IMG/VR virus record: IMGVR_UViG_3300024344_003209
Span: 35,224-99,223 of that record
DNA from: a virus
Length of the DNA: 64,000 nucleotides
Direction: 5' to 3' (one strand)
Positions 1,219 to 52,769 of this stretch are shown here, one piece after another (within the stretch, counting starts at the first letter, position 1; every line of letters starts with the position of its first letter). Under the pieces are notes generated by a model that saw only the letters and a list, made by a program, of their open reading frames with translations, searched no databases and was not told the origin of the DNA. The position numbers and the translations under genes were made by a program.

Positions 1219-1247
1219 AGTATATTACAAACCTAAACAGTTGTCAA
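1219..1247 (-). promoter_or_regulatory. Sigma-70-like promoter for the 98-residue gene
   Basis: On the minus strand TTGACA (1247-1242), a 17-base spacer and TATACT (1224-1219). The start codon of the 98-residue gene is nine bases further on. The expected transcription start falls about three bases before the ATG, so a GGAG in this gap would be mostly or wholly outside the mRNA. The -35 box lies inside the 3' end of the sigma-factor gene. Confidence 0.75.
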
Positions 1248-1811
1248 GTTTTTTATTTTAATTTTTAGTATATCTGCTCCTCTCCTATGTAGATTTATCG
1301 CTGTCTGAGAACTAAAACCCAATTTTTTTCCTATCTCAGACCAAGTCATCTTTTTTTCAGAGAAATACCTAAGTGAGTATACTTCTGAAACCCTTTTATC
1401 TTTTATAGATGATAAAGCCTTGTTTAGCTCTTGCATTAGGCTTATTCTTTCCATAGGGTTTATTACGAATAAATTATCATCAGTATGTATTTTATTTTTA
1501 TACCTCTCCTTTAAAGCACATTGCTTTCTAGACTTATTCATTAAATGCAAACATTTATATTTAGTTATATTGCTTAACCAAGTACAAAAACTAACACCTT
1601 TATCTTTTTTAAAGCTTTTTACGGCTTCATAAATAATCATGTCTTTATCGTCTAAAATATCCGAAGGGTCAGCTCCGGACTGCTTTATTGAAGATATAAA
1701 CCTTGAATACATAGAGAGGAAAACTGGAGAGTATCTCTCTATCACAGAAGATAGAGAATCTTCGCATTCTTCATCTTGTACTTTTTTTATTTGGATATAA
1801 TAATTTTTCAT
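1233..1811 (-). CDS. Phage-encoded sigma-70-family sigma factor
   Basis: Encodes 192 residues, the size of a small (ECF or sporulation-like) sigma factor. Residues about 52-95 match region 2: an acidic helix, then SFKKDKGVSFCTWLSNITKY, the aromatic Trp-containing segment typical of region 2.3/2.4, then a basic helix. Residues about 125-185 match region 4, with a helix-turn-helix around TWSEIGKKLGFSSQTAINLH. There is no sign of regions 1.1 or 3. The start at 1811 has no Shine-Dalgarno sequence; a hairpin with a U-tract occupies the space before it. A transcript reaching this gene must pass that terminator (see 1814-1853). Divergent from the nucleotide operon. Likely role: redirecting host RNA polymerase to a phage promoter class, perhaps the late genes; that target is inference. 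Confidence 0.85.
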   Translation of the reverse strand: MKNYYIQIKKVQDEECEDSLSSVIERYSPVFLSMYSRFISSIKQSGADPSDILDDKDMIIYEAVKSFKKDKGVSFCTWLSNITKYKCLHLMNKSRKQCALKERYKNKIHTDDNLFVINPMERISLMQELNKALSSIKDKRVSEVYSLRYFSEKKMTWSEIGKKLGFSSQTAINLHRRGADILKIKIKNLTTV

Positions 1812-1813
1812 AA

Positions 1814-1853
1814 TTTAAAAATAAATAAAAAGGAGGATTCCGCAAGCGGAATC
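1814..1853 (-). terminator. Intrinsic terminator or attenuator just before the sigma-factor gene
   Basis: On the minus strand, GATTCCGC TT GCGGAATC (1853-1836) is a perfect eight-base-pair inverted repeat followed by CTCCTTTTTATTTATTTTT. The hairpin ends 24 bases before the ATG of the sigma gene. A segment 20 bases upstream in the transcript (CGCAAGCG, 1881-1874) is complementary to the heart of the hairpin (CGCTTGCG), so an alternative pairing that destroys the terminator is possible. Confidence 0.7.
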
Positions 1854-2219
1854 GGCGTATTTTTTTAGTGTTTCGCTTGCGAGACGAAAGAAAGCTTTTT
1901 GGTAATAGGCACACCTCACCCAACTTACATAAGTAACAAAAACAATTACAAAAGAACGCCTTAGCTTCCATATTAGTTCTATTCGCAGGGGCTTATACCC
2001 TTTTCGACCCTTTTATTAAGAGCCTAGCTAATGACTTTCGTAATCTATTTTACTATATGATCTTGTAACAGTAGAACTTTCTTAGATGTTACTCCTCTCT
2101 AACGCCGCCTGCACCCGCTTGTAGCGTGCTACTATTCAGTAGCTTGAGAAGCCCCTTCGGGGTTGTTGGTCTCTTAAGAGTTTCCAGACTTGCTTACGCT
2201 TAAACTGTTAATCATACTT
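1815..2219 (-). ncRNA. Candidate structured leader RNA or small RNA upstream of the sigma factor
   Basis: This 400-base stretch lacks a convincing gene. It begins just after a consensus promoter (TTGACA, 17 bases, TATAAT) and ends at an intrinsic terminator. Between them are several hairpins: GCTACT/AGTAGC with a GAAT loop (2143-2128), GCAC-GCT/AGC-GTGC (2129-2111), GTAACA/TGTTAC (2092-2065), and ACCCC-GAA-GGGGCT (about 2163-2149) enclosed by CTTAAGAG/TTCTCAAG with one mismatch. The region is visibly more GC-rich than its surroundings. It is not tmRNA (no CCA-ended tRNA-like domain), not RNase P RNA (no conserved core), and not a tRNA. Either an independent small RNA of about 390 bases or an attenuated 5' leader of the sigma gene. 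Confidence 0.55.
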
Positions 2220-2224
2220 TGAGT

Positions 2225-2253
2225 ATTATAAAATTAGCTTGACTTTTTGTCAA
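2225..2253 (-). promoter_or_regulatory. Consensus sigma-70 promoter firing leftward
   Basis: On the minus strand TTGACA (2253-2248), a 17-base spacer and TATAAT (2230-2225): both hexamers and the spacer match consensus exactly. Expected start of RNA about 2218-2220. It drives the structured RNA and, on read-through, the sigma-factor gene. Its -35 box overlaps that of the rightward promoter within the inverted repeat CTTGAC-TTTTT-GTCAAG. Confidence 0.8.
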
Positions 2254-2267
2254 GTCTTTTTTAAAAT
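2239..2267 (+). promoter_or_regulatory. Sigma-70-like promoter of the nucleotide-metabolism operon
   Basis: TTGACT (2239-2244), a 17-base spacer and TAAAAT (2262-2267), then six bases to the ATG at 2274. The RNA should start at or next to the start codon, giving a leaderless mRNA; there is no Shine-Dalgarno sequence. The inverted repeat CTTGAC/GTCAAG followed by TCTTTTTT could also act as a weak terminator for rightward RNA. Confidence 0.65.
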
Positions 2268-2273
2268 TTAAAA

Positions 2274-2678
2274 ATGAGCAGATTGAATTGGTTTCAGTAT
2301 GGCATGCAGCTAGCTAGGACAGCTTCTTTAAGAAGTGAAGATCCATACATACAAGTTGGCTGTTGTATTCTTAGGCCTGATAACAGTATAGCATCTTTAG
2401 GATACAACGGAGCTCCTCCCGGAGTAGATATCGATTGGTCAGACAGAAACGATAGAAGAAAACGAGTTATCCATGCTGAAACAAATGCTTTAAGGTTTAT
2501 AAGACCGGGAGAAGGAGATAGAATGTTTGTCACATTAATGCCTTGTTCTGAGTGCCTTAAGAATGCAGTGTCATACGGCATTAAGCGAATATTTTATGAA
2601 AAAATTTACGATTTTGATACATCTTCAGAAGAGCTAGCGGTAGAGTTTAAAGTAACACTACAACAAATAAATCCATGA
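2274..2678 (+). CDS. dCMP (deoxycytidylate) deaminase
   Basis: Encodes 134 residues of the zinc-dependent cytidine/deoxycytidylate deaminase family. Motif HAE at 67-69 supplies the zinc ligand H67 and the proton-shuttle E69; PCSEC at 90-94 supplies the zinc ligands C91 and C94. An N-terminal SLRSEDPYIQVGC and GYNGAPPG are also typical. It converts dCMP to dUMP (substrate assigned from family and context), feeding thymidylate synthesis. It is the first gene of the operon, four-base overlap (ATGA) with dUTPase, and probably translated from a leaderless mRNA. A role on free deoxycytidine cannot be excluded. Confidence 0.88.
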   Translation: MSRLNWFQYGMQLARTASLRSEDPYIQVGCCILRPDNSIASLGYNGAPPGVDIDWSDRNDRRKRVIHAETNALRFIRPGEGDRMFVTLMPCSECLKNAVSYGIKRIFYEKIYDFDTSSEELAVEFKVTLQQINP

Positions 2679-3446: not shown

Positions 3447-3741
3447 AGGACTACTAGTTTTAAACGGTTGCGGTAAATTTTGTTCTTTACTTTTGTCTAA
3501 GCCTATGGTAATATTAAAAATACCGGCGCTAAAGCGTTTAATTGATCAATGTTCAGTTTCTTTAACAGGCTGTAATTGCAGCAGGAAAGACAGAAACAGA
3601 CTAGCTCAGAAAGGTGCATTTGAAATACTTTCTAAACTAGATAACGAAGACAAAGATCATTTAAAGCAGCTCTACGACGAAAAAGAATACAAAGGCATAA
3701 ATGTTCAATTCGAAAGTATAAATAAAAATATCGTAATATGA
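3439..3741 (+). CDS. Hypothetical protein, Cys-containing, 100 residues
   Basis: Not recognised. The N-terminal half is basic and hydrophobic with five cysteines, including a CNC near residue 45 followed by a charged SRKDRNRLAQ helix. The C-terminal half is mixed-charge helical. It overlaps the upstream gene by eight bases and the downstream gene by four (ATGA), so it belongs to the operon and is very likely expressed. The cysteines might bind metal, but no known ribbon pattern fits. Confidence 0.6.
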   Translation: MPKGLLVLNGCGKFCSLLLSKPMVILKIPALKRLIDQCSVSLTGCNCSRKDRNRLAQKGAFEILSKLDNEDKDHLKQLYDEKEYKGINVQFESINKNIVI

Positions 3742-5836: not shown

Positions 5837-5867
5837 GAGACAAATAGCAACCTTAAGCTTCTATTAA

Positions 5868-5898
5868 ATCGCCCCCCGAGAGGGGGTGATTTTTTTTA
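5868..5898 (+). terminator. Intrinsic terminator after hsp20
   Basis: ATCGCCCCC, a short loop, then GGGGGTGAT form a nine-base-pair stem (one G-U), followed directly by eight T residues. It isolates hsp20 from the next operon, whose promoter begins at the last bases of the T-tract. Confidence 0.9.
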
Positions 5899-5927
5899 TT
5901 GACATTTAGTTAAGTTCATCTTATAAT
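5899..5927 (+). promoter_or_regulatory. Consensus sigma-70 promoter of the SSB-like/glycosyltransferase operon
   Basis: TTGACA (5899-5904), a 17-base spacer and TATAAT (5922-5927), both perfect. The ATG follows eight bases later at 5936. The RNA is expected to start one or two bases before the ATG, hence leaderless or nearly so. Confidence 0.85.
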
Positions 5928-11014: not shown

Positions 11015-11353
11015 CTACCATTTGTCAATAGGACATTTCTCTTGAGTAAAGTACGCTTTAAGCGGCACTACGCATCCACACTTTTGGCATCTTTCTCCTT
11101 TGTCTGAAAACCAAGGGCAGCTTCTGCATATGGAAGTTCTTTTTGAGTAAAGTTCCTGTTTAGCTACTATTTCTTTTCCTTGTAAAGCTGCCTTTGTAGT
11201 ATTAGCGATACTTCTTGTTATATTTTTCGCCATTTTGAATCCGCTAGGCATCTTCACTACTTCTTTTTTTTCTAAATTTTTTAAAGATCTAGTTCTAGAT
11301 GTACTTCCGAAGGAAGGCTCTTCTCCCGCTTTTTCTTTATACTCGTTAGCCAT
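11015..11353 (-). CDS. Small zinc-ribbon-like protein at the end of the virion operon
   Basis: Encodes 112 residues. The N-terminal 70 are basic and helical. The C-terminus holds a Cys cluster: C76, C79 (CRSC), C89, C92, C94 (CQKCGC) and C107 (CPIDKW). This C-x2-C...C-x2-CGC...CP-x2-W pattern occurs in many small phage proteins of unknown function and probably binds zinc. Its ATG lies inside the end of the giant gene (eight-base overlap), so it is translationally coupled and last in the late operon. No terminator hairpin is visible between it and the convergent gene. Confidence 0.7.
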   Translation of the reverse strand: MANEYKEKAGEEPSFGSTSRTRSLKNLEKKEVVKMPSGFKMAKNITRSIANTTKAALQGKEIVAKQELYSKRTSICRSCPWFSDKGERCQKCGCVVPLKAYFTQEKCPIDKW

Positions 11354-14300
11354 TTTTCATCAAGTCGAACCTTAGTTGCTCATCACTAATCATAAAGACT
11401 TTTCTACCAAAAGGCGAACATTTATGAACACAAGGGCCTGCTTGGAAGTTTTGGTTAAACAAACCATCGGATCTTCTAACTATCATTTCTGTTTTGTTCG
11501 TACCGTAAACAGCAAGAGCCTGAGTAAATTCTGGCTCTATTTTAAATGTTTGTTTTCCAGCAGACGGATCTATTCTTTCTCTTGATGAAAACTCAAATTC
11601 TTGCATAGATGGCCCTATGATATCATCTCCATCAGCTAAGCCAAAATATTCTTCGTAACTTTGTACGTTACCTGTTCCACCTCTAACATCTCCGTCGGTG
11701 CATAAGCTGTGATAGCCTTGTTCCTTGTCGACTGTTCCTATCTTTTCGTTTTTACATATACCTCTAGTTTGCAGAATTGTTCCATTTATGTTTTCTATCT
11801 TACCTAATCCATCTTCTCCTACAGCGCTCTTAAGGAAGCTAGGCGAAGGCACTATCTCAAATTCTGTCCATTCTATAGTTGTCTTTAAAAACGTAGACCA
11901 AAAAGGTTTTCCGCTTATCTGACACCCAAATATTATTTCGTTCTCGTAAGAAGTGTCTATTATTTCAGATCCAGCTATATTGACAATAGAAACATCAGTA
12001 TCCATAGTTTCGCTTGTAATATCATATTCCTCACTTGTATAAACTAGTTCGCCCCCGAACGCAAAAGCTCTTCTTTTATTTAAGTTTGGCAAATCTAATC
12101 CTTTCTCTTGCGTAAGAACTTTTCCAGCACTATCTCCAGATACATCTCCATACGAAGCAGGGAAACAAAATACCCCATTCTCTTCTGGTATATTTACCTT
12201 ATTAGGCAGGCCTATATCTTTGGGAATATAATTTGCATCAAACACTTGATCTGTTTTAAACTCTTCAATATCATAAGTAGCTTTAGTTATATTTGACTTT
12301 ACTTGACCCTGCAGCCCTTTAAAGCCGGAGAACCAAGCTCTCTTATATTTCTTTTCTTTATGGTCGTAAAAATCTATAAAATTTTGCTTAGATAAAGCTT
12401 CGTATGTTAATGCTTGATAACTTTCATTTATTCTAACAATCTCTTCTCCTGCATTGCTAGGATCTTCCGGAGAGAATGTCATATTAGCCATATCCTCTAC
12501 ATACCTATATTCATATTTTCTATATTTTCTTACCTTTGCGAACACAGGAACATAAGCCCCCAAGAATCTCATGTTATTAATAGTTCTAACATAATTATTA
12601 AAGACTTCTCCAGTAACAGGAGACGTAGGATTAATACCAAACCCTTTAGGTAGGCTAGGATTTTGCTCTCTTGAAAAAGAACTTAACCAAGGTTGAGATT
12701 TATTGGCTATCTCATTTTTTACAACTCTATATTCCGCTATAGAATTATTATTAACTATTGCTGTTAAGACAGGTTTAGTTGGTTCTGGGAAAACTTCCTT
12801 CTCGCAACTGCCGTCTTCTTTTATAGTTACAGATATCTCTTGAGTAGCTTCTCTTTCGTCTGCTTCATATAGCCCTAAATGCTTACTGCTTTCTGTGCCT
12901 TGTAAATCGCTATATTCATCTTCTGTTGAAATTGCGTAAGATTGAGTATCTTTTATTTCTATGTTACGTTCGTTTAAACTATCTTCTCTTGCTTTAATTT
13001 TTCTTTCTATATCTTCTACAGTGTTCCAGTTATCGCTTTCTGATACAGCATTTAAAGTATTAACATATTTAGTTAATGTAGTTTTAAAATCTGCTATGGC
13101 TTGAGCACTTTCTGAGTCATCTACCCCAAAAGACTCCTCGACATATTCTGCTAAAGCTTCTGCCTCATCAGCTAATATACCAAAATTCTCTTGGCATTCT
13201 CCCGTATCTTCTGTAATATTATTAACTGTGACATCGGCCGTCTTTACCCCTTTATGCTCTGAAAGCGATATATAAGGCATCTGACGCTCTTTATAGTCTA
13301 TTGAAATCGAAGAAGCCTGAGTGGCAGTAGCCTGTTTACTTAGTGTGAATTGAGTCAAGCTGTTTATCTTTTCTACTCTTGTGTCAGAGGGTACGCCAGT
13401 TCCCGAGACTCTAGCTCCTAATATTATATTCTTTTGTCCATCGTGATTAACTAGTTTACTATTGTTAGTTAAATTAAAAGTATGAGTAAAGCTAGAATCC
13501 TGTATAACCATACTATGAAAAACAAAAGGAATATCGCCCTTCGCCCTATCTATAACTTTTTGCTTGCCTGCTTCAGAACTTACATCAGAATATCCAGCCC
13601 CCGAGTCAGAAACCTCTACATAAATAACTTTTCCTGACTCAATATGAGCTATAGCTTTCGAGGTTTTAGTTAGTAATCCTTTTTTAGGCTCCGGATCTTC
13701 TATTACAATGTCAGGAGCGACCCTGTAGTCAGAACCACCGGACTCTATAACTACCTTAGATATTCCTCCTACTGCTATTTTATCTACATAGGATGCTTTT
13801 AGTCTATGGGAGAGTCTATACTTATATAATCTCTCATGAGGTATATTAATGTCGTAATTATCAGCTACCCTAGAGTATTCATGACAACCAAAAAGACTTA
13901 CCCCTTCCTTAGGAATAGATATAGAATTCCCTATTAAATGGTTCTCAGCGAGATCAAGGCTAAATATCCCATCTACAGACTCGCCTATATCAGACTGCCT
14001 TATTACAGATCGCCAATCAAAGGGAAGCCTCATTAACTCATTGCGTCTAAAGTGTTTTAACACCCCTTCGTCGTAATACTGGAAAGTCTCATTTTTTATA
14101 GCCATCCTGTAAGTGCCAGTAAACGAACCCGCAGTACCAGAAGAACCAGAACTTCCCGAGCTCCCTGAAGGACTAGCCCCTAAGGAGACTCTAAAATTTT
14201 GTTTGTCGTCTATCTCTATGCTTAAATTTTCCTTTCCTGAAACCTGAACCCAGCTACCAGACTCTAATCTCTGTAAGTTAAATCTTATTGACTTAGGTTT

Positions 14301-17300
14301 ATTTCTAAACGAAGAAGAGCCATCGTCTTTAGGAGGCTCGAAACCGTTAATAAACCCTTTGACATGGTCCTCCGTTAAGCTAAAAGACAACTCCATTCCG
14401 CCGTCAAGTAATACTGGGTATATGTATTTAACTGTTGCTGGTAAAGGCCCGTCATAAGCTAGCCCGTGATCAGTTGTAGTACTCCTTAATAATTCATATT
14501 TTTTATCAAGACTAAATAACCTATCTAAATTTTCGGTATAAGAAAATGAAGAAGGAGTAAATAGAACGTGCTCTGAATCTGCATTGTAATTATTTAAATT
14601 AGGTACTTGATAGTCCATATAATCAGCAGCTATGGTATCATCGTTAGTTGTTTTCTTTATTTGGTCAACATAGTAAGCTGACTCAGTTATAAATATAGAA
14701 GTATATAGAGTTTCTAGTAAATCTTTCTTTGCGTCACTAAATAAAAACTCCTCTGTGTCTTGCGCATCAAAATGAAAAAATGTTTCAGTGTTAAAATCCT
14801 TATATTTATAAAGTATTTCTATTTCTCCATTTTCACAGATAAAATAATCTAACTTCTTGCCGCTAATAGAAACTTCAGCCCCATTAATTAAAATCTTAGC
14901 TTCGTCGCCTTCGCCCTCTATATTGCCTCCATTTAATATATATCTATATTCTTTTCCTTTCGTTAGCTTGACTACTACTCTAACCTCTTTGTTAAAAATA
15001 CTTACAAAATCTATAGTAGTATTATTTCGGAATAATATATTTTTAAAGCTTGCAAATATATCTAAGTCATGCCAATAAATATTCTCATCCAAATCTATTA
15101 AAGATGTTCTAGCTTTAGTTTTGTCTCGGTTATTTCCTGTTAAGTCACTTTCGTTAGAGACTAAACCCTCAGCGACAGCAGATAACTCTAAGTTCGCTCT
15201 AACAGAAAATACATTTCCTTCTTGGGTGTATATATTATCTGAAGTTGTAGCAAAAGCTTCGGCTGTATTCGGGCTTTCGTAACTATCCTCATTTTCCTCG
15301 TCAGAAACCCCGACTGAATAATCTTTATAAGAAGGTCTTTCTAGATAAAATCTCTTATTGTTCACTATAATAGGAAAGTTAAGAGACGTATATTGAGTAT
15401 CGTCTATTCCGTGATCGTATATTTTATTAATTACCGGATTCTGTCCCCTGTAACCATCTACTCTTCGCCCTTTGTTATCTAGTTGAGGCTGCAGGTTGAA
15501 GTAGTTTACTATTTTGTATTTATTACCAGAGAACCCTGCGCTGTCTATAATATTAACAGCATCGTAAGTTAAATCTGTATTTCGTTCGTCGTTATCAAAT
15601 ACATTTAGCACTTCATATAAATTAGAGCCCTTTTCTTCCCCATCTGCTGCTACAGCAAAAATTCTTAAAAAGTACACTCTCCCTGCTTTTATTTTATTAG
15701 GCCCAGATGTTCCTGCATCATGTTTGAATACTATAGCATCTCCGTTATCTACATTATTTAATCTTATAAAAGTCTTTCCATTATCAGTAGTCGCTTCTAT
15801 ATCGTTCCATCCACCAAAAGTATTAAGTTTTGCTACTCCTCCGGGTCTTGCTATGTCTTGATAAGATATTGATTCTAACTCAGAATCTAATATATATCTA
15901 AGTTTAGCTTTGCTTGTATTATTTGTTAGGTATGTTCCTATTTTAGCATCTTTAGTTAAATCATTAAATACTATTTTTTTGTTAGTTAATTTTTTTAATC
16001 TAAACCTAACGCTACTATAAGAAGCTTTATCTCTATTTAAATTAAATCTGAATCCAACCATTGGGTCAGGCCCAGAATGCACCCCAAAAGGAACAAAAGA
16101 ATATCCATGATTATTTTTTAAAGACAAATGAGCTTTATGATTTCTTTGGTTTATCTCTATTTGATTAGCCTTCATGTACTCATCAAGAGGCAGGAGTCTT
16201 TCGTCTGCATCTCTAACCTCCTTGCTTTGTTGTTCATATCGAGCTTTTATTCTGTCCATAGCTTTTACGCTTTGCTCTTCTGATATGGCTGAAGAAAAAT
16301 CTTCATTAAGGCTTCTTACAACCCCGTCGGGAGCAAAAGGCGCACTGTCTTTATCTTCTATAGATAACCTTATTAAGTCGTGAGGAGCAGAATTTAACTT
16401 TAAGGAAGATTTTATCTTGTACTCATAAGCAGGAGATTCTATGTTAGACTGATTTCTTTGATTCTTATATCCAACTAAATTAACTCTTACCCTTATAACT
16501 TTTTCAACTTTATCTTCTATTGTTATCTTTTCATCCCCTGATTGAATTATTGTATAATCTGAAGCTAAGGTGCCCTCTAGCAATGGTATAGTAAATTCAA
16601 AATTTCTCGTGTGGTGCCAATTACCTTTTTCATATTCGTTAATAACAAAAAGACCACCACCTTTTTTATCTACTTCATTAATATATCGCCCCTCTATATT
16701 TTTTATTTTTCTTCCCTGTATGAGTTCATAAGCAGCGCCGCTTGACACTTTTTCTTCTACCACCGCATTTAGAAAATTATTTCTATGTTCGTTAAGAGAA
16801 ACCTTACTCCAAGCGGGAGATTTAACAGCACTAGTGGGGTCATCTATTTTACTTTGAAATATTTTAGCAAAATCTGTTTTTTCGTCAGATTTAATAGAGG
16901 CGTCTTCAGCTGAATCATCTATATCTTCTACTCCGTATTGAGAAAATTTTAGATCAAAATGATAAGGCATATTTAGCTTATATTCAGTTAATCCAACACC
17001 TTTTATTTTTTCTCCGGGTCCGTAAACTTCTCCATTATACGTTAAAGTAACCTCTTCTGAGTAATCTTTTTGTTCGTATTCCTTTTTATTAAAGAGTCTA
17101 CTGAAATTATCTATTTCAATATTATTTAAATCATAAACAAAATCATAATCAAAAACTTCTTCCGACTCAAAAGAATGGTATCTATCCGGCTTAAAGCCTG
17201 ATAAAGTTATTTCGCCTGTTCTTTCGTTAAAGTGAGAGCATTTTGTTATTCTTTCGTGGCCAGTATTGAGACCGTAAGCAATTATATCTTGCTTCATATC

Positions 17301-20300
17301 CCAAGGTATTTTTAAATACATTGGGCTAGTCATAGACGATATATCTTTCTTAAAAAATACATCTCTTTTCACGCCCCTTTGATTACTAAAGAAAGTAACA
17401 CCAAATTTATATGCATCATTGTAATCTTCTATAGTTTGAAACCCTGTCTGGCCTTCTTTAGGCTCGTTTTTATTAGTGTTGAATATATTTGAAAATTTAT
17501 ACCTAGCTCCCTCATATTGAACATTAATGCCTCTCTTCTCTAATGTCCTCTCCATTTGCCATTCTTTTTCGTCAAAGTATGTTGGGTCTTCTATTAGATG
17601 AGGTATATCTAAATCTGTAAGCTTAATAAACCAATCTTCTCTTCTTTGCTTTCTTATTTCTGAATATGTTATATCGGTAGATGAAGTGAAGTCGGCTCTT
17701 TCACACGAGTAAACAGGAGAACTATAATTAATCAATTCATCCTCCTCGTTACTTTCTGAGTATTTTACATTTATTTCTCCATTTGAAATATTTGCTATCT
17801 TTAAATTATCAACACTTGCTACTTCTACATCTGCATTATGAGTTAAAATAAATACCTTGCTTGCGTTTGGAGTTATAGAGTATTTAGGTCTTACTAATTT
17901 TGTTCCTGCTCCCCAACTTCCAACTACATAAGAATTTTTAGAAAGTTGTAAATCCAAGCCTTCCTTTAAACAATCATTCCCTGATACGTTTAAAAACACA
18001 GTTCCAGACTGTATAGTTCCCTCTACCTCAAATGGATCTTTAAATACTATAGATTTATTCGCATAAAGAGACTTTCCGCAATAAAATCTACGAAGAAACG
18101 TTCTTTCCTCATCTAGGATGTCTTCATTATATAAGTACCTAATTAGGTCAACATAGGATTGCTTTTTAGTAATGTTGCCAACCGCAGCTTCTCCGGCTTG
18201 AGTTATGTTATATAAGTTCTTGCCTGATAAAGACGCAAACCTATATGTGTCCTCATCGGCATCATAATCCACTGTTCCTTCTAGATTGAATTTGTATACA
18301 TTTGTATCTTTTAGATTTCCCTCTATATCAAACCTATTATACAAAGACAAAGATATATTAGCTGACTTATCCAAAATATAATCAAAGTTTTTCTTTGGCA
18401 ATAATATTTTATCATTCGCCTGAGACAACCTAAACTCATCCAGCCTACAGCCTATATCCACTAAGTCAAAGCTCGTTGAACCATTATTAGCCACGCTAAA
18501 AGAAATTGGGCCTACTGCGGGTATATTTTTTACAGAGCTAGCGGCATCCATTATAGAAAATCCATTAAAAGACATAGAAATAACAGAAGGAATCCCGCTT
18601 TTTCGGTCTTGATCTACTGTATCGCTAGAAATAAAAGGAATAAAGTCAGCGCTAAAAAACTGCGGAACGCTGAAAGATCTAATGACTTGATCATTAAATA
18701 AAATAGCCTGTTTCTCGTATAACCCTTTGTCTAAATTTACTGTACCGTCTTTAATCTGCTTTATTAATCTATGTACGTTGTCTTTGTTTTTTAATACTAG
18801 AGCAGCAGAGCTAACTAGCATGTGCTTATCTTTATCTACTTGCAAGGTTTGGCTACTACCTATCAGCTTAAGGCCAAGGTTTGCTCCTGAGTTATTTATT
18901 ATGTTTGTTTGTGGTATTTCATTATTTATAATAAAACTTGAGCTCTGCCTAGTCACGGTGAAAGCCTTTAAATCTTTCCTATAAATGCCCCTCTCTACTA
19001 CTGTGCAATCAGAAGGGCCAGAAGATGCGAAAGCGTTTGAAGCATAACTTATTTTTATAAACTTACCCGACGCTAATGTTGTGTTAAAAACCGCAGACCC
19101 TTCAGGAGAGGTTATCTGTATTGAGTCTCTAGATCCATTTATTATTATAAAATCAAAATCTCTTGTTATTAACTTTCTTCTCGGTAAGGATATGTTAGTG
19201 TTATCTGCTACAGATATTATAGCTCTATTTTTTTGTTCGCCATCTACTGAGGAATCAGAGAACAAAGCTTTAGATTCTTTTATTTTTAATAACTTTGCAT
19301 CTCTTAAATCTACATTAACTAAATTTGATTGATAAACTTCTACTTCCGATTTTTCTCCTATGTCTCCTAGATTAATATCGCCATTTATATAAAAAGCAGA
19401 GAACCCAGTATCATTGTAAGCAGAAAAGTTTGGCGAAAGCAGCTCTGCTACAGAAAACTGCAAAGCTTTATTTTTTGGCAACAAAGCAGGAGTTAAATCC
19501 TGATCGTAATATTTATCAAACCTACCGCCACTGTGAGTAAAAGATCTGTAAGCCCCTCTAGACGGTATAATTTTTTCATTGATAAACGACTGCAAATGAG
19601 AAGAGAGAACAGCCGATTCAGCTCCACCGTTACCATCATAACCCTTAGCTGTAACAGACACATCCTCATATACAGTATTGACTAAATTAAGTTTAACCAA
19701 ACCCTCTTCCCCCACTCCCATGATCTTATAAATTGATTCATCGGCATGAGAAAAGTCTGTTTCGTCAGGAAGGACTAAGTAATCATTTATTTTCTTTGAG
19801 TCCGCAACGCTTAGACCTTCGTAATAAAAACCAATAGTAATTGGGCATTGAATACCAAATATGTTATATTTTTTCTCAGAATTTAAGTCTGCAGAAGAAT
19901 AAACAAAGTCATCAGAAGTGTTTGCTGGATCAGTATCTTGCTCTATCTCTATATAGGTAAAGTATTCTCCAGAGTCGTCATCAAAAGCAAATTGAGCCAG
20001 TTCAGCAGTATAAAATTTAGAGGAATGCAATTTACCTTCAGAAGTTAAGTTCTCTATACCGTAGCTATCTGCTGATTCATAATTTATATTAACATTAATT
20101 GGCTCTTTAGATATATTAGATATAAAGAATTTTGTGTTTTCATCATACGCAGCTTTACCATAGTCATCCCCTATATTACTTGAGACGTATGGCCTTAAGA
20201 AATTAATATCTCCATCTACTAAAATCTTCTTATTGTGATGTATGCTATGGTCAATAATTATATCGCCGGGTTTCATTATGAAAAACTCAGCCGTCGATCC

Positions 20301-23300
20301 TTTTGTGACTTTAGCTATTTTGCTATCTTCGTCTATATCAAAAGTATAACCATTAACTTCATTAACATTAAACAAAGTATGATTTGTTGGATCACCGTAA
20401 TTATTTTTGTCATTTATGAATGCAACTGAATCTGAGTTTAAAGTAAACCCTGTAGTATTATTAAAATTTTCAACCCTAACAGGCCTATCATGAAGATTAA
20501 CAACAGCTACCTTACCACCATTAGAGCCAACTAAATCTTCTAGGTTAGCCCAATTATTTGGTAAAACTATTTTTAAATCATCGCTATGCTCATCTGGCTT
20601 AAAGAATATAAAATTATGTTCAAGTCCTGAATCATCAGCCTTACTCAAATATTTTCTGTCTAATACGTGAAGCTCATTTTTTGGATAGTATATTATATCG
20701 CTAGCGTTAGCAACGGTAGAGTTTTGATCCTGCTCAACAAACGTGCCACCGCTAGTGTGTTTTGCAACTCTGTTCTTTTTAATTTCATACTTAGCGTTAT
20801 TATTAGTGTTAGATATAGCGACTTTACTTAAGCCCGCATTTATATAATAATCACCATCAAAATTAGAATCAGACAAGTCTGCCTTAGCATGAAACTTACC
20901 ACTTAAAAATACAGTATCCTTACCTTGAAGGCTCTCTACAGAGCAGGTATCAGTGCTGCCATCCTCTGTGTACCCTGTTACGTAATGAACGCCGGAAGGA
21001 GTACTACTGCCACTTGTGTATACGTTAGAGTAATGCTGTTGCAATGATGCAGTTTTATTTATTTCTAGAGACTCAATTAGCTGAACATTGTCAGAGAAAG
21101 TCTTTATAGCTTCCGCAGGGGCGTTATTAACTATGTCTAAACTAGAAGTGTCAATATTGTTTACATAAAAGGTATCAGTCAACCTTGAGTCCTCTTTTTC
21201 CAACCTTTCGTTAGTACTTAGAGCAGAATCTAAGTAAAGCTCTATATTATTACCATCTAAAACTTTTACAAAATATGTTTGCTTTCTAGATTCAGAAGAA
21301 TCATCATCTGCAGAAATAGTCAAGCTGAACTCAGTAGCGGTTTCTGTAGAAAGGCCTGTTTTATTTCCAAAGAAATCGTACATCTTAGTTGTACCTTTTA
21401 TATAAGCAAAAAGCCTATTTACCTCTACGTCGCCAGCCACTAACTTCCTAGAGCTAGTGTTTAAACCTAAAACATCAGAAAAACTATAAGGATAATCAAA
21501 GTTGGTTTTAATTAATTTGTAATCCGCCCCTCTATAGTAAGTAAAGTAATATGCACCACTAAGATAACAAAGAACGCTATCACCATCAGAGAAGCCTTGT
21601 GGGTTCTGCGGGGAAGTCTGGTTATGGTAATCATCCGGATCTCCAGCATAATAATGATCTGCTACTATAACCTTTTCGCAATTAAAAGTCAACTTTTGAT
21701 ATGTAGTCAAACCATGGTTTTTAAAATTAAATTTATTAGTACTAAAAGACAGGTATTCAATAAATTCACCTTCAGCATTAAACATTGTTTCCATGTTTTT
21801 CTGCGAGTACTTGTGCTCTTTTTTTGTATAAATGTCTTTTTTAATCGCCGACTCTAAATATACATTATCTACTGATCCATCTAAAACAACAAAGTCGCCA
21901 TCAGATAAATCTTGTGAATGATTTTGCGTCTTATTAGTATATACAAAATTATTATAATCAGTTTCTTTTCTTTCCGACTTATCGTACAAAAAGTTAGTAG
22001 AACTAAATTCTGCAACTTCTGATATATCAAGCAAAACATCACGAGAAGAAGATTCTGCAGGTAAGGAAGCTTTAGCTCTAGTTTTAGCTAGATTGCAAAA
22101 CACTAAATCAAACGGGTGATCATAAGTGTTGTCATTGATCGTAGGTAACTCAAGACCTAGGTCTTCGCTTCTGTTCACTATCACTTTTTCCCCAGTCGAA
22201 GAAGGTTGATCAAATTTATACCTATCTGACTGGTCTAGCTCTTCGATCACAAAAGTAAATTGATTTTTACTTCTTATAGATATAACTCTTTCTTTTGACA
22301 GCGGGGTATTATAGTAAAATCCAATCTCATCACCATACTTATCCACAAACTTAACCGACTCATCATCGGAAGATAAACCAATCAAAACATCCTCATCGAC
22401 GTCTTTTTTAGAAGTAACAAAAATTTCAAAATTACTATCGTATCTATCAGAGGCGAACTTAAAGTCTATTGAGCCACCTTGACCTGAGTAGGAATATACT
22501 CCCTGAAAGTCCTCATTGCTAACTGAGACCTCGTTAAAAACTATAGGTTTTATATCTTTAAACTCGAAGTCAGACCCATTAAATTTAATTCTAGTGCCAA
22601 GACTATTGCTTGGGGCAGTGTACTTCAAGACTCCATTTATAAAAATTCTCATCACAGGAGTAATCCAGTCCTCCCTGCTACCCTCTATATTAAAATTTTC
22701 TATTTGATTTCTAACTACATTTACGTATCTACCACTAGCTATAGTCCCTGTTATTTTTATGTCTACGTCTTCGTTGTGAACTATAGTGTTACCTGCAGAT
22801 GCGAAATGAGAACTAGTTAAATTTAATTGATTATAGCTTACTACTTCGATATCACTTGCCGCCCAGTTGTTATTATTATAAGTAAATTTTCTAGCTGCTT
22901 TGGGTGGTATATAATCTGTCAGTTTAGAGTTAACTGTATGACTAGAATTTTCTGCTAAAACTTTAGTCTCGTAATTAGTTGCGTTAAGGAAAGTTATATG
23001 CTGGCTGTTAGATAAGTTGTTTGGTAATATTAAATCTGCACTGCAATCAATAACCCCTGTTATGTTAGCATCATCGTTTGTCAGCTTTATCTTGTCGTGC
23101 TCCATTATTATAGCATTGCTATCTACGCTACCATTAGTAACACTAAGAGAACTAGTCGAAAGATTGATCACTTTATTAGTGCTGCCGCCAGCTATCGTAA
23201 CTTTAGAGCAATCTTCTACGACAACTGGGTCATTTGTATCTGTTATTGTGGCAACAGGAATAGGTGTTTCTACGCTTCCGTCATTAGCTGTTATATTTAA

Positions 23301-26300
23301 TACATCAGCTGGAATCGAGCCAACAGGATTTGATGATGCGGTATTAGCTACACTAGCCCCGGAAACTATAAAAGTTTTACCTTTGTCATCTTCTGTGGCT
23401 ATTAAGTTGCTAGTTATAATTGGGGGGTTGTAAAAGTTGTCTACAGGAGAAAAAGTGAGACTACTAACGCTTGTTAGGGTTGAGGTGCCTCCATCACCAG
23501 TAGTAGCTGAAGAGCAAGAAAAATTAATTATTTTGTCATTATTATCTTTTAGTTCGTCGAAATGACTTCCAGTTATAGATGGGGTTACAAAAGCTCTTGT
23601 CTCTTCAGCAGGAAGTCCAAAAAGCTCAGCGTCTCTTTGGGTTCCTAAATAGCTATCTTCTTTTCTTGTCAATAGTAAACCGCTAGGCTTAGGCCCTAAT
23701 ACGGTATTTATGTTAGATAGAGAACTAGAAAAGCCTCCATTTTTACGTATCCTGACACCAGTTAAGCCAGCTAAAGATATAGGTTTAGATGTTAAAGACG
23801 ACTCACTAGATACAACATCACCATCTACGTTAGTTTGCAAAGTTTCTATTTTTAACTCGCTAACCAAGTCTTTATATATATTTTCACTTGTATTTTTTAT
23901 TAAATAATACTCCCTTGTAGGATCAAGAGTAACGACAGCATCTCCGGCTGAATCTATAACTGTATCGCTAGCCTGCTGTGTTATATTCACAAGAGTCTGG
24001 CTAGTTGGCATAGTCACATCTAAAGGTAAGAAATTAATCTTTTTGATTACTTTAGTTAAATCATTTTCTAATTCTATATTCTGTTTCTTTTTTATTCTAA
24101 ACTCTATTTCTTCTGGTCTATACTTTCTAGTTATATCTGTCCTCATTAATATATAAGGTATGGAGTTTACTACTTGTATATTATTGAAAGAGTCGGCTCT
24201 GTTTTCTGTATAATCATTATTATAAAAAATTCTCTGCTCAACAGAAGTTGATGTAGGCTCGACATCTGACCAAGTCGTACCGGAATTCAAAGAGTATTGC
24301 AATTCATAATCCCAACCCCTTTGAGAGCTATAAGAATCTTTAGTGCCAAGATCTCCTATTAGTACCGCATTTTTAGTATATATTTTATATACGTATTTAG
24401 TTATTCTTAATCTAGATCCAGCGGAGAACGCTCTTCTGTCTATGTCGTCTCTACTTGTTATGTAGTTGCCTCCCTTAATGTTGGATCTTATAAAACCTAT
24501 ATCTTCCCCCGCCACATCTTCATAAAGGTAAGGGGCAGCTAGGAAGTCTTTCTTTGCGTCTTTTGCTCCGTCTTTGTATTTATAACTTTCAAATCTTATT
24601 CTGTCTATATCGCTTATTGATGTTATAGGAGAACCTTCATAATTTTTATTTATATGAGGGTTATTTGGTGCTTGATATGCGTACCCCCTTATATAATTAA
24701 TCATAGCCCTACTTGAGCTAACGCTTAAATTATCTGACTCTGAAGATGAAGCGAGCCACTCACCCATATGGTAGGTATCTTCCTCGTTTGTATTTTCTTT
24801 GTACTCGTTAGGTGGAGCTACATTGTTAAAAGAATTTTTATTTGTTATCCAGTTTCCGGGAACAACTTCTCTTCTAGATAAGAATCTTAAAAGCTTATAC
24901 GACCTAGGGTTAGCTTCTTTCTCTAATACTGGCGGAGAAGGCTTAGCGAACGTCCCATTTATCTCATTCGATTTACCAACATAAAGCCTAATGTTATAAA
25001 GCCTACCAATAAAACCATCCCCAATAACTAAAGATTTATTATTTTTTGCCTCTAAGTCATTAAATTCAAAAGCATTATTTGTTTTCTCTTTGCCATCGAC
25101 AAATAATTTTAAATCTATTTGTTTAGTTGACTTATTAAAAGTTGCAGATATAGCAACATGATGCCAAGTATCATTAGTTAAAGCTGACCACGTTATCGCA
25201 TCTTGTCCAGATATTTTAAATTCTAATACATGGTTAGGCTTCATTGAAACTTCTATAACACCAGATTTGGTAATTATTTTTTTATCTTGAGATCCGTTAG
25301 GCTTTATCCAAAAGTCCAAAGAGAAATTACCTTTTAAGATATTAAAAGATCTATGGCTACCTAAATCAAGCTTATCTCCGGCATCAAAGACCATAGCTTG
25401 GACAGATGTGCCAGATACAGTATCTGAAGTTGTAGTTACATGAGGATTATTGCTATCATCTTCATTTACGTTGTCTATCTTATGCTCAAACTTAGACCAA
25501 TCATAAATAGAGTTGCTGGCTTTAGATTTTAATATTAGACTATCAGCGGATTCATTAACGGTCCTTATGTTGGTTTTATTAGTAGTGATCCTTGACTTAG
25601 TCCACTCGAGAGCCCTTATTTTAAGGTTGCTTGAAGGATTATTAAACGTTGAATTTTTTAAATTCACAGTTAAGCTAGAAGAGTCTAAAGCTTCTAAAGC
25701 TGGGCATACTTGAGACCAATCGCTAGTTCCGTCCTTTGCTTGTATCTCATAATAAACTCCCGCAGTGGGATTCTTTATTGTTATGCTCCTTTCTCCTGCA
25801 GTTGACCCAGCGAAAGTCAAAGGGTCGGATGCATTTCCCTCTCCAGTAACAGAAATACCATCGTAAGACAAAACCCCTATTGCTTCATTTGCCCTAGAGA
25901 CCCTATTGTTAACCAAGCTACATCTAAAATTGTCAGGCTGGTAAGTGTATACGCTATCTGTGTTAACTAAATCTATGTCAGTTATTTCGTAGTTGCTATT
26001 ATTAGAATAGTGAAACTCATCTCTAACTTCGTTATTCAACAAAAAGTAAGAAGGGTCTTTAAAAGGAAACACTTGTTGTGAAATATGAGGCTTTTGGTAG
26101 ACCTGAGTCATATATAACTTCTCCTCACCTAAAGCTTCTGGGTTTCTGGTAGAGGGGTTAATAGAGAATGGACTTAGAGCCTGCCCTTGTTTAGAAGAAA
26201 AAACAGAAGGAGAATAGTTATTAGCCTGAGTAGAATTATCAGAATCAATATATATATCTCTTTCTAAATAGAAAACAGTAGAGTCACCTAATTCACTAGC

Positions 26301-28412: not shown

Positions 28413-28431
28413 CAAACCTTAAACCTTGCAC

Positions 28432-52469: not shown

Positions 52470-52769
52470 TTATTTTTCTTTTAAAATTACAGTGACAAAT
52501 TCTAAAGTTTTGTCTATTTCCCTAGCTGCGTCATTTCCCGCATCTAAAATCTTTTTTCTTGTTTGGGTGAATCGGTCTTCCGTGAAGTAGTCCAGATCAT
52601 CTATTGCGTTAGCATCGTCAAGAGAACTTTTTTTGATCCTGTCTTTATAGAGCTTATGTTCTCTTAGTAAATCTTCGGTGATTTCGAAATATTTTTTATA
52701 TAGGTTAACTATATTCCTGTGGACTTGGAAAGATATGATATCTTTAAGCTCTGTTTTTTCCTCGCTCAT
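52470..52769 (-). CDS. Small helical protein, first gene after the tail-tube terminator
   Basis: Encodes 99 residues, almost all helical and charged, e.g. IVNLYKKYFEITEDLLREHK. Not recognised. The start has two AAGG copies upstream (AAGGTAAAAGG). It begins the segment between the tail-tube terminator and the tape measure, so its expression depends on read-through of that terminator or on a promoter that I do not see. A small tail-assembly factor is a reasonable guess from position. Confidence 0.55.
   Translation of the reverse strand: MSEEKTELKDIISFQVHRNIVNLYKKYFEITEDLLREHKLYKDRIKKSSLDDANAIDDLDYFTEDRFTQTRKKILDAGNDAAREIDKTLEFVTVILKEK

Follow-up and report, generated by a model that had tools for sequence, protein, structure and literature searches.

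The stretch of DNA analyzed here, which we call the window, comprises 64,000 bases (35224–99223 of the 99,223-base IMG/VR virus contig IMGVR_UViG_3300024344_003209), and our subject is the 462 bases that separate two divergent genes near its start. On one side lies a sigma factor gene (1233–1811, minus strand; 192 amino acids), whose product matches Pfam region 2 with E=6e-6 and region 4 weakly, and on the other a dCMP deaminase gene (2274–2678, plus strand) that opens the divergent operon. Comparative sequence analysis confirms that the gap is the gene of a genuine, folded noncoding RNA about 320–390 bases long, which is homologous to RNAs of other phages and belongs to a family carried by many uncultured phages. 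The predicted RNA runs on the minus strand from 2218, a start placed by its promoter, to an end hairpin that finishes at 1836, and the sigma factor ATG (at 1811) follows 24 bases past this hairpin. Both the end hairpin (1853–1836) and the promoter (2225–2253, minus strand) are present where a preliminary description of this DNA had reported them; the promoter matches the sigma70-type consensus TTGACA-17-TATAAT at 12 of 12 positions and is kept in three close relatives, L002, L005 and L007 (11–12 of 12). Over all the RNA loci described below, promoter scores average 8.8, compared with 5.4 for random segments, and promoters precede all RNA types. An inverted repeat, CTTGAC-AAAAA-GTCAAG (2237–2255), overlaps the −35 box and is kept in all four window-type phages (the window and these three relatives); it is a candidate operator or opposite-strand hairpin.

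Since the folding energy of the window RNA taken singly equals that of shuffled sequences (z = −0.08), comparison with relatives was required. L002 was retrieved with the sigma factor as query, and L005 and L007 with a pattern taken from the most conserved block of the RNA. The order deaminase, RNA, sigma factor, 98-amino-acid gene is identical in all four phages, which also have in common the promoter, a core of ~325 bases and the end hairpin. Between the window and L005 or L007 the RNA core is 72.5–76.9% identical at the nucleotide level, against 57–65% for the genes encoding the sigma factor, the 98-amino-acid protein (p98), the deaminase and the dUTPase at the same distance; the RNA is conserved better than the surrounding genes. 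The consensus fold of the four window-type RNAs has z = −4.1, which none of 200 column shuffles matched, and both sides have changed at 13 pairs, counted in helices that were picked by hand with the alignment in view. The long-range helix P1, for example, reads AACAGT/ACTGTT, AAAGGT/ACCTTT or AATGGT/ACCATT among the window types. No reading frame is conserved within the RNA, as a 66-amino-acid open reading frame (ORF) in the window shrinks to 36–51 residues in the relatives.

More distant relatives (L080–L085, then L086–L159) were recruited with alignments of the 98-amino-acid gene. In many of them a minus-strand deaminase gene is followed by a plus-strand gene of ~150 amino acids, a noncoding gap of ~400–500 bases, a dNMP kinase gene (phrog_139), the sigma factor gene and the 98-amino-acid gene. 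The structured RNAs in these gaps fall into two sequence types, A and B. As a sequence-only nhmmer comparison between RNA types gave no significant match (best E=0.21), we used a covariance model, R1, which has 99 positions and was trained on seven type A RNAs alone. In the training alignment both sides have changed in 10 of 19 pairs and 97.7% of cells are paired, with none of 500 shuffles as high. When the window, L002, L005 and L007 (95.7 kb) were searched with filters off, the window-type RNAs took the first four places (E=7.1e-8, 7.2e-7, 1.7e-5 and 3.1e-4), and the next match had E=0.05. That fifth, weak match (18.6 bits) lies inside a long minus-strand gene region at 52592–52674 of the window and is probably due to chance. 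Once the window types were added to the R1 alignment, a step in which they were fitted to the structure, covarying pairs rose to 13 of 19 (0 of 500 shuffles). Across 13 full type A RNAs both sides have changed in 13 of 44 pairs, again with 0 of 500 shuffles reaching this value; two of the 13 are compensatory pairs in the type A counterpart of P1, GCGGUG/CACCGC. A pattern scan added further type A loci, all upstream of the kinase, which in L187 is separated from the RNA by two intervening genes. Together, the window type and type A account for ~20 distinct homologous loci.

The structured minus-strand RNA of the preliminary description is thus borne out by the consensus fold, covariance-model homology and covariation, which also establish that the structure is real. 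That description had staked its case on the stems being conserved in related phages that share the gene order, and they are.

Within the window, all parts of the RNA lie on the minus strand. The 5′ strand of P1 (AACAGT, 2204–2209) pairs with ACTGTT at 2072–2067, and two of these pairs are compensatory among the four window-type sequences. The segment between them carries helices P4–P7 (2090–2184), which show covariation and are matched by the type A model with 39.4 bits (E=7.2e-7). Domain 2 (1944–2045) is closed by P8 (GATTACGAAAG/CTTTTGTAATT), which encloses P9–P12; compensatory changes occur in P8, P10 and P11. A pseudoknot that crosses P1, joining its 3′ flank to domain 2, is probable from the aligned sequences: AGTTCTA (2072–2078), which adjoins the 3′ strand of P1 and shares its first base, would pair with TAGAACT (1981–1975), and the type A equivalent is AGUCC/GGACU. 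Since these pairs are near-invariant inside each type and there is one difference between types, from U-A to C-G, support for the pseudoknot is weaker than for the nested helices. Beyond about position 1896 the RNA is variable or deleted in relatives. The terminator-like end hairpin (GATTCCG-CTTG-CGGAATC, −8.3 kcal/mol) has two compensatory pairs in L005 (CACTCCG/CGGAGTG). As its U-tract, which is poor in L005, begins four bases past the stem, termination here is plausible but not assured.

Type A RNAs contain, in addition, one exact direct repeat of 14–16 nucleotides per RNA (15 of 15), with copies 185–242 nucleotides apart, for example at positions 3478 and 3676 of L092 and 3519 and 3704 of L122. 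The repeat varies by lineage (AAAGGATAAGCAGTCA, with GAAAGCTGGGAGTCA in L122 and AAAGCTAAGAGTCAGT in L187), and within a genome both copies are identical; something must recognize the two alike. In type A contigs that cover the RNA from end to end, these two copies are the only ones, the L122 version having been searched over its 10-kb locus only. We considered whether the repeat might be a genome-wide phage promoter and rejected this because a full-length type A contig has no more than two copies. No duplicated module was found in the window RNA, where the longest direct repeat is 8 nucleotides. Since the window RNA is matched by the type A model yet lacks this module, it is a diverged subtype with a homologous core.

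Type B RNAs occupy the same genomic slot upstream of the kinase at eight loci (L086, L088, L099, L102, L107, L115, L147 and L159), and both sides have changed in 13 of their 21 pairs (0 of 500 shuffles). They finish in a strong GC-rich hairpin followed by a candidate kinase promoter; by eye, an imperfect repeat of ~20–25 nucleotides flanks this hairpin on both sides. A type B model matched neither type A nor the window type and recovered L159, when it was left out, only with E=0.11. We regard type B as a positional counterpart on present sequence comparisons and do not claim common descent with the other two types. Type B persists in L099, L147, L102, L103 and L107 although these have no sigma factor gene between the kinase and the 98-amino-acid gene. 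No sigma factor was found in the L099 and L147 fragments (20–37 kb), and L102, L103 and L107 have weak matches to sigma-like frames of 280–285 amino acids elsewhere in their contigs. One or two extra genes separate the type A or B RNA from the kinase in L187, L099, L147 and L107. Across the RNA types, the gene following the RNA may be the sigma factor, the kinase or a gene of 242 or 269 amino acids. The window type, in turn, keeps the RNA though the kinase has been relocated. The RNA family is not tied to the sigma factor.

What might this RNA do? We consider it fairly probable that the gap holds an autonomous phage noncoding RNA gene with a host-type promoter, whose product adopts a two-domain fold with a probable pseudoknot and acts in trans. 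The comparisons above demonstrate the host-type promoter at a fixed upstream place, the structure, the homology of the core to type A, slow evolution and independence from any single downstream gene. They also show that the ~325-nucleotide core folds into two domains, the 5′ one closed by P1 and holding P4–P7, the other closed by P8. Host RNA polymerase would transcribe the RNA early, and the transcript would end at or near the last hairpin. The folded RNA would act in trans, probably by binding protein or other copies of itself rather than by base-pairing to mRNA, and a fraction of window-type transcripts may continue into the sigma factor gene. More speculatively, and with considerable doubt, type A and the window type could represent a new class of RNA machines made by phages, to which type B might add a third form in the same genomic slot. 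Such a machine would be a pseudoknotted RNA of two domains on which a symmetric complex of protein or RNA is assembled in the infected cell; its type A form would bear two identical recognition modules, which change together between phages. Several observations weigh against an autonomous trans-acting RNA. The window-type sigma factor gene lacks an evident promoter of its own, beginning where a leader would predict, and no classical U-tract terminator precedes the kinase in type A. Nor is the RNA universal, since low-GC relatives (L093, L104, L108 and others) have a kinase-sigma operon with no RNA in front.

The preliminary description had left the choice between a regulatory leader and a stand-alone RNA open. 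A stand-alone RNA fits better, and a cis-acting leader, in which the RNA would sense a nucleotide, a protein or the replication state and control readthrough of the last hairpin into the sigma factor (window type) or kinase-sigma (type A) genes, seems to us rather unlikely. Such a leader would account for the RNA always lying upstream of, and on the same strand as, these genes, and for an end hairpin 24 nucleotides before a sigma factor gene with no strong promoter; in addition, each full-length type A RNA examined has two identical segments that could vie for a single partner. However, a sigma attenuator is insufficient to explain the family because type A and B RNAs precede the dNMP kinase, extra genes intervene, and type B persists with no sigma factor in the operon. 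The constant regulated gene expected of an attenuator or riboswitch was not found, with the limit that the sigma-less loci carry type B, whose kinship to the window RNA is unsupported. The strong GC hairpin and candidate kinase promoter of type B also argue against a leader, and, with over 300 conserved bases, the RNA is big for an attenuator. The proposed antiterminator fares no better: CGCAAGCG (1881–1874), its 5′ half, and the complementary stretch of the end hairpin both exist in the window, but L005 and L007 have lost CGCAAGCG, and the proposed mutually exclusive terminator and antiterminator are therefore not conserved across the four window-type phages. A second segment, CAAGCGGG, is complementary to the end hairpin (alignment columns 155–162/433–440) and invariant in all four window-type RNAs, and this invariance leaves the pairing neither supported nor excluded. 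An element acting at the level of DNA or replication, such as a transcript that primes replication at an origin, as ColE1 RNAII does, or an R-loop origin, with the structure serving primer maturation, is improbable. It would suit a divergent junction with a host-type promoter, and cumulative GC skew reaches a local minimum close to the RNA in G012 and in two of the window-type contigs; however, the change in skew coincides with the switch in gene strand and is confounded by it, G001 has no outstanding minimum, and no other origin feature was found. Chance hairpins in a nonfunctional spacer would explain the single-sequence folding energy, but this idea is refuted by the covariation, the covariance-model homology and conservation above that of the genes, and we give it almost no credence.

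The phage itself is unclassified because the terminase and most structural genes have no recognized match in the contig. The minus strand of the window holds an ORF of 5689 amino acids (11346–28415) and a run of further large ORFs (28446–54960); of the nine ORFs scanned, none lying between 28446 and 54960 had a PHROG match, the 5689-residue ORF being outside that scan, and no terminase family turned up in the contig. The lineage looks distant from described phages. On the plus strand, a strong terminator-like hairpin is followed immediately by another perfect TTGACA-17-TATAAT promoter (5866–5927). TATAAT-like boxes lie only 5–10 nucleotides ahead of several gene starts (in L093, L086, L092 and at 1247–1219 of the window), which suggests leaderless transcripts or very short 5′ untranslated regions in this phage group.

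In cultured phages, blastn located no region homologous to the RNA or to the operon, and neither the sigma factor nor a 100-amino-acid neighbor had a cultured-phage match. The deaminase query and a four-sequence sigma factor alignment yielded no new relatives, a pattern scan of genome contigs gave 51 matches of which none extended as RNA, and the TTRCNNAAGTCATTAGCTA pattern returned chance matches besides the known relatives. We found no description of this RNA family in the open PubMed Central (PMC) literature, a source that leaves subscription papers and preprints mostly out of reach. To our knowledge, covariation-supported families of large phage RNAs are rare and their functions open. The present RNAs add a family that lacks an Rfam match, keeps to a fixed operon context and bears a repeated module in its type A members; searches for partners and RNA-seq tests will be possible once a host is cultured.

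How does this RNA compare with known ones? In agreement with the preliminary description, which matched it to no known class, no Rfam model reached its gathering score in the window, where weaker hits were at chance level, and none matched type A or B RNAs in the loci scanned. Although tmRNA, RNase P RNA, 6S RNA and group I introns are structured RNAs of similar length, neither Rfam nor ARAGORN matched them here; ARAGORN found no tRNA or tmRNA genes, and so no tRNA-like ends with a tag frame, in the window or in the relatives' loci scanned. Attenuators and riboswitch leaders likewise have a promoter, a structured leader and a hairpin near the start codon, but differ in what is missing here, a conserved antiterminator and a constant downstream gene. 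ICP1 phage makes an abundant noncoding RNA of ~800 nucleotides from an ORF-less gap (PMC7567579). Ours is a similar phage noncoding transcript predicted from sequence, in another phage and at another locus, whereas the ICP1 RNA lies beside the lysis cluster; the two are set apart by description rather than by sequence. The closest parallels are GOLLD and ROOL, large ornate phage RNAs of unknown function that form RNA cages (PMC12286853). Like GOLLD, the RNA is large, phage-encoded, apparently pseudoknotted and first seen in environmental sequence, but it has no homology to GOLLD (RF02032; best score 10 bits in the window against 150 needed, and none in the relatives), is less than half the size and has no adjacent tRNAs in the loci scanned. 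Like ROOL, an ornate RNA of phages and prophages, it has a complex structure, a likely pseudoknot and no known partner (PMC12286853); unlike ROOL, whose Rfam model found no match at the gathering threshold in the window or relatives, it does not sit beside tRNAs and has a fixed place at a nucleotide-metabolism and sigma factor operon. With its many helices, covariation, lack of a conserved ORF and a pseudoknot suggested by near-invariant pairs and a between-type difference, the RNA belongs to a known kind, the large structured phage RNAs exemplified by GOLLD and ROOL, within which it appears to form a previously undescribed family.
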